Origin: a virus | Strand: one strand, 5' to 3' | Length of the DNA: 31,073 bases | IMG/VR virus record: IMGVR_UViG_3300017724_000043 | Location: 1-31,073 of that record | Part shown: positions 4,047-31,073 of the stretch, piece after piece | How the letters are laid out: every line of letters starts with the position of its first letter | Position numbering within the stretch: the first letter of the stretch is position 1 | The notes under the pieces: generated by a model | The model's database searches: none | What the model was told of the DNA's origin: nothing | The model's input: the letters and a program-made list of their open reading frames with translations, nothing else | Position numbers and translations under genes: made by a program

Positions 4047-4442
4047 ATGGCTATAGTAACAGGGCAAACAGGAATAGTAAAAATAGGCAGTAGCGCGGCA
4101 AACGAAAACGCAGTTGGAAATGTAAGGTCTTTTAGCATTGAAACTTCTGCTGACACTATTGAATCTACAGTCATGGGTCAGACTGAAAGAGAATATCTGC
4201 GAGGTCTTTCAACTGGCACAGTTTCTATTGAAGCATATTGGGATGAAACTGATGAAGGACAACTTTTGATGGATGAAAGAGCAATAGTATTTTTTGAAAT
4301 TTTCCCTACTGGCGATGCGTCAGGGCAAGAGAAATATACAGGATCAGGCATTGTAACTAGCAAGTCTGTCAGCGCGGCATTTGATGGCATGGTTGAAGCT
4401 AGTTTTACAATTCAGATTTCTGGTGCTATCGCTACACCTTAA
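4047..4442 (+). CDS. Major tail tube protein
   Basis: The product is a 131-residue protein starting MAIVTGQTGIVKIGSSA, with FSIETSADTIESTVMG, an aromatic turn (SIEAYWDETDEGQ) and a beta-rich C-terminus (GTGIVTSKSVSAAFDGMVEASFTIQIS type). Compact beta-sandwich tube proteins of this size occur in siphoviruses, and the sequence reads well as one. It is followed by the G/GT-type chaperone, the canonical order tube-chaperone-tape measure. GAGGCAAGAAA precedes the ATG as a ribosome site. Confidence 0.78.
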   Translation: MAIVTGQTGIVKIGSSAANENAVGNVRSFSIETSADTIESTVMGQTEREYLRGLSTGTVSIEAYWDETDEGQLLMDERAIVFFEIFPTGDASGQEKYTGSGIVTSKSVSAAFDGMVEASFTIQISGAIATP

Positions 4443-4461: not shown

Positions 4462-4809
4462 ATGGGATTTGCTAAAGAGTTGCGAGAAAGACGCACTGTA
4501 GAAGCTAGAGAAGTTGTTGTGCCAGAATGGGGTGACGAGTCTGGAGCGTTTAAATTGTATTCTAAGCCAATTACTTGTGCTGACTTACAAAAGCTACAGA
4601 TAAAGCACCCTAACTTCTTAGAGAACACTACGATAGAAGCTATGGTGGATTTAATTATCATCAAGGCGTTAGACGAAGATGGCAAGAAGATATTTGCGCC
4701 TTTACAGGATCGCAAAGACTTAATGGAAGAAGAAACTTCTGTTATTAGTGAAATAGCTAATCAGATGTTTGCCGAGATAGAAACGCAGGAAGCGTTAGCA
4801 AAAAACTAA
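4462..4809 (+). CDS. Tail assembly chaperone, short form (gpG-like)
   Basis: The product is a 115-residue protein between tail tube and tape measure genes, where lambda-type G sits. It carries WGDESGAFKLYSKPITCADL, a common pattern for this chaperone group (short beta region followed by helices), then VDLIIIKALDEDGKKIF. It ends EALAKN just after an A AAA AAC heptamer, where a fraction of ribosomes is expected to shift -1 and make the longer GT-like form. It would bind the tape measure protein before tube polymerisation and not remain in the virion. AGGGGAATAATC precedes the ATG. Confidence 0.82.
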   Translation: MGFAKELRERRTVEAREVVVPEWGDESGAFKLYSKPITCADLQKLQIKHPNFLENTTIEAMVDLIIIKALDEDGKKIFAPLQDRKDLMEEETSVISEIANQMFAEIETQEALAKN

Positions 4810-4952
4810 AAACCGATCACTTTCGCATGAATTTATATGTGTTAGCTGATCGGTTACACAAGACCATTGATGAGGTTGAGCATATCAGTATCACTGAGTT
4901 CAACGAGTGGATGGCTTATCTATCACTGCTAAATAAGGATCAAAATGGCTAA
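4462..4952 (+). CDS. Tail assembly chaperone, -1 frameshift fusion (gpGT-like)
   Basis: Reading the first frame to 4806 and then slipping back one base gives CTA AAA ACC and a 48-codon extension ending at TAA 4950-4952, for about 163 residues in total. The extension contains LYVLADRLHKTIDEVEHIS and TEFNEWMAYLSLLN, the typical pattern of the T part of gpGT (helix, V-E-H-I, x-E-x-x-E-W-x-A-Y). The -1 ORF has no good start of its own and overlaps the tape measure start by eight bases. The frameshift is inferred from the slippery site, stem-loop and protein pattern. Confidence 0.83.
4800..4855 (+). promoter_or_regulatory. Programmed -1 ribosomal frameshift signal (slippery heptamer plus stem-loop)
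   Basis: The heptamer A AAA AAC occupies 4800-4806 in the correct phase (gcA AAA AAC), with the zero-frame stop TAA directly after it. Four bases further, AACCGATCA (4811-4819) is perfectly complementary to TGATCGGTT (4847-4855). This gives a 9-bp stem with a 27-base loop, a textbook stimulator position although the spacer is slightly short. Confidence 0.85.
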
Positions 4953-6951
4953 TCAAAACATGACCATTGCCATAAAGGCAAAAGACTTAACTCAGGCGGC
5001 GTTGAAGAATATCAACACAAGCATGAGAAAGATCAATGCTAGTGTTTACTTGGCTCAGAAAAGATTTCCTAAATTATCAAAAGCGATTAGGTCTGTTGGT
5101 CGCGGTGCTAAAGGTTTAGTGGTCGGTCTAGGTAAATTAATTAAAAGACTAGCTTCAGTATCGTTAAAGATCGGTGCAGTTGCGGCTGTCGCAGGCGCAG
5201 GCATATTTGCGATGATGATAAAGTCGAGTATGAGCGCGACTGACAATCTAGCTAAGACCGCAAGAAAGATAGGCACAACCACTGAAGCATTATCTAAGAT
5301 GCGTTACGCGGCACACCTAACCGGTGTAGCGTCAACCACAATGGACATGGCTTTACAGCGTTTCACAAGACGTACAGCAGAAGCCGCTAAAGGAACAGGC
5401 GAAGCAAAAGACGCGCTTAAAGAGTTAGGCATCAATGCAAGACAGATGCTCAAACTGCCGTTAGAAGAACAGATGCTTGAATTATCTAAAGCATTTGAAG
5501 ATTTCAGTTCTGCTGACAAAGTTAGATTAGCTATGAAGCTGTTTGACTCCGAAGGTGTTGCCCTTGTTAATACTCTTGGTTTAGGCAAGGAAGCCTTACA
5601 AGAAATGATGGGCGAAGCGGCGGCACTAGGCATAGTTATGTCTACAGATGCCGCTAACGGTGTTGAGGATGCAAACGATGCGTTTAGCAAGCTAGGTTTC
5701 TTGTTTAAGGGCATTCGTGATCAACTGACTGGCGCACTAGCCCCTGCCCTAGAAGAACTGGCAACAGCCCTTAAAGACAAGATACAGGCAGGTATAGATG
5801 CCGCAGGTGGTAGCGTAGAGGACTTTGCGCGAATACTTGCTGTCGATATTATGCAAGCAATAATGACTGCACTGTCTGGACTGCAAAAGTTTATCAATGG
5901 CGTAATACGCACATTCAATGAAATCAAATTAGCCGCATCTGACTTTACTGGTTTCTTTAAATCTGACGATGAAAAGAACGCGACACAACTGACGCGCAGA
6001 ATAGAAAAGCTAAATGAGGCTATGGCAGAACGCCAAAAGCTGATTGATAGCACATCATCCAGAGCGCAACGATCCCATGAGGCGGCACAACAAAGAGATG
6101 CGGCAGAAAAAGAAAGCCTAGAAGAACTGTTGGCAAAAAGAACAGAACTAGGTGAAGTTGCCTTAGTGCCAGAACTTAATTTTGCCGATGATATTAATGG
6201 GTTTCTCGGCGGTCTGGTTGAAAAGTACAATGCTGTCACACTAGCAAAAAAAGGTGAAGGTGAAGGTGGTGATACTACCGGTGGTGATGACGATCCTAAC
6301 AAAGAAGAAAAAGAAAAGACAGAAGAACTAACTGCTTTTCAATTACATCATAAAGACTTGTTAGCGAAAGGCGATGAAAAATACTTAGCATTTAAAAAGA
6401 AAAATGCAGTTGATAAGACAAAGGCTGTTATAGGCGGACTTAGTGAACAGCTTAAAGGCACAGGTGCTATAAGCAAGAAACTTGGCGCATTAGAGAAAGC
6501 GGCGGCAATTAAGAAGGCATTGATAGCTACTTACGAATCATCAGTAAAAGCGTTTTCTGCGGCAGGTGGTTTTCCGTTTGGTATACCTGCGGCGGCTATG
6601 TCTATAGCACAAGGTATGGTGCAGGTTAATGCTATTAGATCGCAATCCTTTGATGGTGGCGGCTTCACTGGTCATGGCGCAAGAACTGGCGGTGTAGATG
6701 GTAAAGGTGGATTCAATGCTATACTACACCCTAACGAAACTGTTATTGACCACACTAAAAGCAGTGTAGCATCTGGGTCAGGTGATGCAGTTATCGTAAA
6801 CCAGACCATAAACGTAACCACAGGCGTTCAGTCGACAGTTAGAGCAGAGATTGCTAACCTTATGCCACAAATATCTGAAGCGGCTCAAAACGCAGTTTTA
6901 GAGGCTAGAATGCGCGGTGGATCATACAGCAAACAATTAGTGGGTCGATAA
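4945..6951 (+). CDS. Tail tape measure protein
   Basis: This is a 668-residue protein, one of the longest in the genome, directly after the chaperone pair. It has a basic N-terminus (KAKDLTQAALKNINTSMRKI) and a hydrophobic helix at about residues 70-92 (GAVAAVAGAGIFAMMIK). The next section, DNLAKTARKIGTTTEALSKM, is standard for tape measure proteins. A charged coiled-coil region lies at about 345-400, a Gly/Asp-rich spacer near 435-450, and another hydrophobic region near 540-560. The C-terminus has the FDGGGFTGHGARTGG, HPNETVIDHTK pattern typical of these proteins. At about 1.5 angstrom per residue (established rule) the tail would be roughly 100 nm. Confidence 0.95.
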   Translation: MANQNMTIAIKAKDLTQAALKNINTSMRKINASVYLAQKRFPKLSKAIRSVGRGAKGLVVGLGKLIKRLASVSLKIGAVAAVAGAGIFAMMIKSSMSATDNLAKTARKIGTTTEALSKMRYAAHLTGVASTTMDMALQRFTRRTAEAAKGTGEAKDALKELGINARQMLKLPLEEQMLELSKAFEDFSSADKVRLAMKLFDSEGVALVNTLGLGKEALQEMMGEAAALGIVMSTDAANGVEDANDAFSKLGFLFKGIRDQLTGALAPALEELATALKDKIQAGIDAAGGSVEDFARILAVDIMQAIMTALSGLQKFINGVIRTFNEIKLAASDFTGFFKSDDEKNATQLTRRIEKLNEAMAERQKLIDSTSSRAQRSHEAAQQRDAAEKESLEELLAKRTELGEVALVPELNFADDINGFLGGLVEKYNAVTLAKKGEGEGGDTTGGDDDPNKEEKEKTEELTAFQLHHKDLLAKGDEKYLAFKKKNAVDKTKAVIGGLSEQLKGTGAISKKLGALEKAAAIKKALIATYESSVKAFSAAGGFPFGIPAAAMSIAQGMVQVNAIRSQSFDGGGFTGHGARTGGVDGKGGFNAILHPNETVIDHTKSSVASGSGDAVIVNQTINVTTGVQSTVRAEIANLMPQISEAAQNAVLEARMRGGSYSKQLVGR

Positions 6952-29607: not shown

Positions 29608-31073
29608 ATGTCAGACGGATCACACGCAGACTTTCTAGCTAAACTATCGGAAGATCATCAGGCTAAACTAGGTGATGCGATTGTAAACCTAGAGGACAAG
29701 ATAACTGACCTTTTGTCCGGTGCGCCTTTGACTGACGGTGAGTTCTTTGATCTTGAATGGGCAGTAGAGTCTAGGAATGAACTAAGAAAGATCATCGACA
29801 AAGAGTATCTTGAAGAAGTCGATAAGATCGTAAAGGACTATTCTGGTGTCGCAGAACGCGCTACAGATATGCTGTCAGAGTACGGTGACTTTACTAAGCT
29901 AGATACAGGCGTTGTCAGGCAGTTGCAGACTCTTACCTTTCAGGGTTTTGAGTCAGTAGGCGATCAGTATCTATCGGCTGTCTCTAAGGAGATATACGAC
30001 ATGACCTTAGTTGGCACATCGTTTTCTGATGCTGTTAAGAACGTCAGAGATACGGTTAGCGGCAATTTAAAGCGTTACGCAGATCAACAGGTGCATGATG
30101 GTCTAATGCAGTTTAACGCCAATGCTAACGTGGCTATCGGCAAGCAGTCAGGCGTTACTAAGTGGAAATACTATGGCGGTCTACAGGATAACAGTAGATC
30201 GCACTGTAGGAAGCACGTTGGTAAGGTCTACACTGAGGAAGAGATAGCAGAGATATGGTCAGGCAGTTGGCAAGGCAAGGCATCTGGCGACCCCTTTGTT
30301 GTTCGTGGTGGTTATAGATGTCAGCATCACTGGCGACCTGTATTTGATGAAGAAGTGGTATCTCAGGTAGTAGAGGAAGAACCAGTAGAACTAGACGAGC
30401 CGCCACAAGGTGTACCAAAGCGTCAGAAAAGAGTGGATGCTGAGAAGGAAATAAAGCAGAAGATTAAGCCTAAGTATCAAAGTGTAAAAGCAGGTGAAAT
30501 GGGTGATGACTATTCTGCTTATCCAAATGTAGGCGGTATAGCCGCAGTGCGTTTTAGAAGGGATACTTATGACGCAAGAAAACATGGTCGGGATTGGATT
30601 GAATACAGCAGACAAGGTTTCGGAAAGATTGAGCATGAGTTCAACGATGACCTTGCAAGCGTTATGGTTGGTATGCTAGACGAAACTGCGGAACTTTCTG
30701 CAAAGTACAAAGTGCCACAGGTCAGAGGTCTCGATATATCAAAACGCGGTGTCGCAAGCATGGGCGATGGCGTGATGTGCCTAAACCCTAAGTACATGGA
30801 TAAGTTAGCAACACAAGTTTATGTAACACCTGCTAACCGTAAAAAAGCGTTAGGGAAGGTTGACCAGTTAAGTAAGCAAAGACTAAAACAGCGTGAGGTT
30901 GTTGACAAACTTAAAAAAGAAAGAGATGAGTTGGAAGAATTGTGGATCAAGGCAGAAATGAACAATGCGCCACAAGATGAAATACGCGAACTAAGCAAAA
31001 AGGTATTCGCCGCAGACAATCAAGTGAGTTCTGCGTCAGTAGAATTAGGCAAAATAAATAATGCTATACAAGA
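29608..31073 (+). CDS. Minor head protein (Mu gpF-like) with C-terminal metallopeptidase-like domain, 5' part
   Basis: The gene has no stop before the window end and continues into base 1 (frame preserved), ending at 580: 640 residues in all. Residues 1-170 are charged and helical. The gpF-like head domain lies at about 183-252 (TKWKYYGGLQDNSRSHCRKH to DPFVVRGGYRCQHHWRP), with conserved Cys/His. A charged linker follows (VEEEPVELDEPPQGV). Residues about 290-450 (YKVPQVRGLDIS, VASMGDGVMCLNP) probably form the first half of the zincin-like domain whose HEYGH lies at 532-536. It starts straight after the portal stop, the usual place. Confidence 0.87.
   Translation, partial: MSDGSHADFLAKLSEDHQAKLGDAIVNLEDKITDLLSGAPLTDGEFFDLEWAVESRNELRKIIDKEYLEEVDKIVKDYSGVAERATDMLSEYGDFTKLDTGVVRQLQTLTFQGFESVGDQYLSAVSKEIYDMTLVGTSFSDAVKNVRDTVSGNLKRYADQQVHDGLMQFNANANVAIGKQSGVTKWKYYGGLQDNSRSHCRKHVGKVYTEEEIAEIWSGSWQGKASGDPFVVRGGYRCQHHWRPVFDEEVVSQVVEEEPVELDEPPQGVPKRQKRVDAEKEIKQKIKPKYQSVKAGEMGDDYSAYPNVGGIAAVRFRRDTYDARKHGRDWIEYSRQGFGKIEHEFNDDLASVMVGMLDETAELSAKYKVPQVRGLDISKRGVASMGDGVMCLNPKYMDKLATQVYVTPANRKKALGKVDQLSKQRLKQREVVDKLKKERDELEELWIKAEMNNAPQDEIRELSKKVFAADNQVSSASVELGKINNAIQ
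30951..31073. repeat. Terminal direct repeat (copy 2), circular-closure overlap
   Basis: This is identical over 123 bases to the first 123 bases of the window, with no mismatch found. One copy should be dropped when the genome is closed. Confidence 0.93.

Follow-up and report, generated by a model that had tools for sequence, protein, structure and literature searches.

The locus analysed here lies on the plus strand of a virus record of 31,073 bases (41% G+C), the whole of which we call the window. Its genes follow the standard siphovirus order: tail terminator, major tail protein, G, T frame, tape measure protein and distal tail protein. The major tail (tube) protein gene (4047–4442; PF06199, phrog_10528) is located upstream of G. 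Situated between the tail tube and the tape measure genes, the G/T locus includes G itself (4462–4809, zero frame, 115 aa) and a -1 open reading frame of 48 codons, the T frame (4806–4952), which would provide the C-terminal part of a GT fusion. The translation of the T frame is LKTDHFRMNLYVLADRLHKTIDEVEHISITEFNEWMAYLSLLNKDQNG and it closes at a TAA codon (4950–4952). The tape measure protein gene (4945–6951; phrog_9483, E 6e-71) comes next, and its ATG, at 4945, lies within the last bases of the T frame.

The 3′ end of G reads gcA AAA AAC TAA. As stated in a preliminary description of this DNA, and as can be read directly from positions 4800–4809, the heptamer A AAA AAC (4800–4806) is in phase and the zero-frame stop codon TAA (4807–4809) adjoins its 3′ end. 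The phasing, X_XXY_YYZ, is that required for tandem -1 slippage and places a slip site of the appropriate type near the 3′ end of G. The heptamer by itself is not rare: AAAAAAC is present 14 times in the window for about 10 expected. The 36 window genes carry 39 in-phase XXXYYYZ heptamers, and only that at 4800–4806 abuts its own stop codon with a long (48-codon) -1 extension.

G matches phrog_344 (tail assembly chaperone, E 6e-7). Neither Pfam nor NCBIfam provided a useful match for G or T. An AlphaFold model of G (mean pLDDT 75.6) was obtained with a 37-row alignment which included only the window and the retrieved loci. When compared to solved structures, this model was closest to 2OB9, the HK97 tail assembly chaperone, with 3FGX and 3KLU next. 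The fold match with the HK97-type chaperones is moderate (TM 0.56–0.61), whereas a PDB profile search with G found no sequence match to them or to other solved structures. The model predicts for G a fold resembling that of the HK97 chaperone; by similarity (phrog_344 and the fold match to 2OB9), G would itself be a tail assembly chaperone. The -1 ORF encodes a T domain, as the preliminary description had suggested: it matches phrog_337, as found for 16 out of 16 relatives, and so does lambda gpT. When G and T were artificially fused, residues 17–157, which span the junction, matched phrog_16513 (tail assembly chaperone), as expected if both are one protein.

Relatives were collected by scanning viral contigs, genome contigs and phage records. 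This gave 249 sequences, including some duplicated contigs, two sequences cut by contig ends and one without the end of G, with 120 distinct downstream sequences. In each of the 248 records with a complete 3′ end of G, the stop codon (TAA, TGA or TAG) is directly preceded by AAAAAAC (155) or GGGAAAC (93); the 120 distinct relatives carry these two canonical forms, A AAA AAC and G GGA AAC, without exception. With the remainder of G used for a tree, at least seven switches between the two forms of the heptamer can be counted. Each switch represents three base changes (Lys to Gly in G) and no intermediate was seen among the 248 relatives. The -1 frame includes W.(A/G/S)Y in 234 of the 249 sequences and EWIAF at the same place in 12. 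Homologues without both the heptamer and the downstream ORF, which the preliminary description had singled out as evidence against frameshifting, were looked for: the heptamer and stop are retained in 248/248 and a T-like -1 ORF in essentially all.

The two heptamer forms bear on whether the shift might occur during transcription, by RNA polymerase slippage on the A run to give edited transcripts encoding the fusion. The window does include six A in a row (4800–4805), but known cases of this type need longer runs (n > 7, PMC3711429) and the run has been replaced by GGGAAAC in relatives at least several times while the device was kept. Since GGGAAAC does not include an A run long enough for polymerase slippage, ribosome slippage is the better reading; transcriptional slippage was discarded on these grounds and we consider it extremely improbable.

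All 89 distinct sequences of the window's clade have an open T frame, while the other two frames are stopped in 100% and 99% of them. Third codon positions are the most variable and the median dN/dS is about 0.13, which indicates that the -1 ORF is under purifying selection. The preliminary description had added that this ORF has no start of its own, which is incorrect as written: ATG 4827 and GTG 4839 are both in the -1 frame. G and T might then be separate proteins, with T initiating alone at ATG 4827 or at another start in the frame, and codon 4827 is indeed ATG in 70 of the 89 distinct relatives. Against this, it is ATT, TTT, GTA, ATA or AGG, and not a start codon, in 17 of the 89 and TTG in two more, and its variation in these 19 sequences makes an independent start there unlikely. 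In the window, ATG 4827 is not preceded by a Shine-Dalgarno sequence at the usual distance and is located inside the hairpin described below. The T frame is also conserved 5′ of this codon, right up to the heptamer, and a separate T would leave the conserved in-phase heptamer without explanation. An independent start at ATG 4827, being neither conserved nor provided with a ribosome-binding site, was rejected, and a separately initiated T appears very unlikely.

The heptamer is followed by two arms, 4811–4819 (AACCGATCA, conserved core 4813–4818) and 4847–4855 (TGATCGGTT, conserved core 4848–4853), which form a perfect 9-bp inverted repeat. The RNA fold of 4807–4870 has a free energy of -20.0 kcal/mol (z = -4.4 compared to dinucleotide shuffles, with 0/200 shuffles as good). 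The upper part of the hairpin (4820–4846) folds into an interrupted helix in which 4820–4829 pairs with 4836–4845, and the hairpin is longer than first reported; similar extended hairpins occur in the clade. The pair 4812–4854 is A/C in 66 of 89 relatives; being usually unpaired, it does not belong to the conserved helix, which starts at 4813 and is separated from the heptamer by 6 nt. The perfect 9-bp stem of the preliminary description is confirmed, whereas its four-base spacer is particular to the window sequence. The conserved structure, 6 nt behind the heptamer, falls within the usual spacing for -1 stimulators (5–9 nt; PMC7618472).

Covariation in the stem was analysed in the window's clade, using 79 distinct sequences over 66 nt and 89 over 118 nt and ranking column pairs by a corrected G statistic. 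The pair 4813–4853 ranked first of all column pairs, with a score of 34.5 compared to 12.6 for the runner-up. In the 79 sequences it is GC in 46 and CG in 33 and never unpaired, and it is paired in 89/89 of the larger set. The pair 4818–4848 is fourth in the ranking and always paired. In a slid-partner control, paired cells dropped from 86% to 61% or less. The preliminary description had called for an examination of compensatory changes among homologues and, in the window's clade, this gave a positive result. The test which best separates RNA from protein constraint is that of the Arg codon at 4851–4853, whose third base is free: the codon is CGC whenever 4813 is G (53 of 53 sequences) and CGG whenever it is C (36 of 36). 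Elsewhere in these genes CGG represents 3% of Arg codons, and the favourite, AGA, is never found at 4851–4853. In two relatives (L158 and L162) the amino acids have changed and the helix has been kept. When compared to shuffles which maintain the T peptide, the natural sequence did better at the 5% level for 97% of distinct GGGAAAC sequences. For the AAAAAAC sequences, a set which includes the sister clade, the figure is 61%. These codon-aware shuffles and the Arg codon rule out the stem as a mere coding by-product, and the sequence comparisons indicate that selection at the RNA level maintains the hairpin in the window's clade.

The pair 4813–4853 changes eight times on the tree, both sides each time. 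The branches concerned are well supported for only three of the eight changes, a number with which a sign test does not reach significance, and this is a point against the frameshift reading. The pair 4816–4850 is an A-C mismatch in 23 of 89 sequences, many of which have a longer upper helix instead. RNAalifold retained only the core pairs for the clade, the upper helix being lost because its register varies between sequences. Among relatives in the window's clade, the switch of heptamer form is not linked to the state of the stem pair, all four combinations being observed.

The sister clade, that of the Roseobacter phages CRP-8xx and their relatives, is represented by 40 distinct sequences, each with AAAAAAC. 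The Roseobacter phages (CRP-822-type family) and the Pelagibacter phages HTVC026P/202P have a homologous G (~32–42% identical) which, as here, ends in A AAA AAC and a stop codon and is followed by a T frame. The window G is 42% identical to that of CRP-823, while the terminase is closest to those of the Pelagibacter phages HTVC112P/026P/202P (~53%). The CRP-822-type family is delimited by core genes, namely those for helicase, capsid, portal, tape measure and terminase (PMC12629253). In contrast to the window's clade, the 40 distinct CRP-clade sequences gave neither a consensus structure nor matching covariation. A shifted 3′ arm in CRP-823 (CTGATCGC), considered as a relocated stem, was dropped for the same reason. 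The presence of the heptamer without the stem in the sister clade suggests that frameshifting is family-wide and that the stem is particular to one clade.

In six isolate or genome records (L081–L086: CRP-823, CRP-811, HTVC202P, CRP-406, HTVC026P and DSL-LC06), only G is annotated and the T frame or GT product is missing. The gap between G and the tape measure gene, which holds the T frame, is 138–166 bases in these records and 210 in DSL-LC06. The text of the paper describing the CRP-822-type family, as far as covered by a term search, makes no mention of frameshifting (PMC12629253). The isolated relatives examined are annotated for G alone. On sequence-level evidence of conservation, the device can now be extended to a large group of uncultured marine phages as well as to the CRP and HTVC phages.

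The conservation of the heptamer, selection on the T frame, its membership of phrog_337, the predicted fold of G and the gene order all support the proposal of the preliminary description, a -1 ribosomal frameshift producing a G/GT pair. We infer, with high confidence, that this is a tail assembly chaperone gene of the G/GT type, in which a programmed -1 ribosomal frameshift takes place. Most ribosomes would read A AAA AAC, reach the adjoining UAA and release the 115-aa G. In a minority, both tRNAs would slip back one base on the heptamer and translation would proceed in the -1 frame through the T domain, to yield a 163-aa GT fusion (...ALAKN-LKTDHFR...). By analogy with lambda, G may coat the tape measure protein, and the tail tube subunit may be recruited through the T part of GT; if these roles are as in lambda, the slip would set the G:GT ratio.

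Slippery sites in this gene slot are known, as the preliminary description had pointed out, and the role and spread of G/GT frameshifting have been described (PMC5009743), so that the device is not unusual as a kind. In lambda, the G/GT site (G GGA AAG) occupies the same slot between tail tube and tape measure genes, is also an XXXYYYZ heptamer near the end of G and shifts in the same -1 direction, and the lambda T domain belongs to the same PHROG as the window's T frame. The two systems differ in several respects: the second codon of the heptamer is AAC in the window and AAG in lambda, the window's stop codon lies directly behind the heptamer, its T is 48 codons long compared to the 144 aa annotated for lambda T, and the covarying hairpin is a feature of the window. 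Lambda G also falls into other PHROGs than the window G. HK97-like chaperone genes frameshift at 6–7% in tests (PMC3711429). The g-t frameshift of the haloarchaeal viruses HCTV-1 and HCTV-2 uses the same two heptamers, G GGA AAC and A AAA AAC (PMC5009743); the likeness is in the heptamers and the hosts are archaeal.

In E. coli, A AAA AAC slips far less than A AAA AAG (PMC5009743), which counts against the frameshift reading. The weakness of the heptamer in E. coli also makes a stimulator plausible here. The hairpin of the window's clade, with its conserved base at a distance of 6 nt from the heptamer, would most likely stall or tug the ribosome and set the rate of slippage, and we think it probable that it is a frameshift stimulator. 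The site can be likened to that of E. coli dnaX where, in a bacterial gene, a slippery heptamer is stimulated by a hairpin located downstream (PMC3711429). The dnaX site differs in its heptamer (A AAA AAG), in having an upstream Shine-Dalgarno-like stimulator and in belonging to an unrelated gene. Alternatively, the frameshift may be real and the hairpin serve another purpose, such as mRNA stability or pacing of tape measure translation, or simply be a by-product of coding. Constraint at the RNA level does not by itself name a purpose, the hairpin is upstream of the tape measure gene, and the sister clade does without the stem, which is therefore not needed for the device as such. However, the by-product version fails both the Arg codon test and the codon-preserving shuffles, the distance to the heptamer is that of stimulators, the tape measure gene has its own AAGGA some 80 nt further on and an Rfam search found no match. 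A role of this type is unlikely when compared to that of a stimulator, although it is a more serious candidate than polymerase slippage or a separate T.

The locus can thus be described, with good support, as a device of a known kind, previously unannotated here, in which the clade-specific covarying hairpin is the one unusual trait. A literature search limited to open-licence papers, in which absence is weak evidence, found no covarying hairpin at a tail-chaperone frameshift site. We lean slightly towards the view that one lineage of marine phages has an RNA hairpin stimulator at its G/GT site while its sister lineage has none, and that slip rate on "AAC" heptamers would be set by RNA structure together with the abutting stop codon. 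If true, nature would have provided a pair, with and without hairpin, in which the tuning of the chaperone ratio by phages could be studied. The clade-specific hairpin offers a clean comparison, with the same chaperone family and heptamer, with or without a stem.

The one near relative from the genome collection (L247) is found in an uncultured Pseudomonadales MAG (gammaproteobacterial). This is a weak hint to the host of the clade, since binning of phage contigs is unreliable. The window ends, 1–123 and 30951–31073, are an exact direct repeat of 123 bases, so the record is probably a complete genome. An ORF behind the portal gene starts at 29608 and continues across the join (29608–31073) into 1–580. 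Pfam found no family for its 29608–31071 part; its C-terminal part, which is encoded at the beginning of the window, includes HEYGH, a zinc-metallopeptidase-like HExxH motif.
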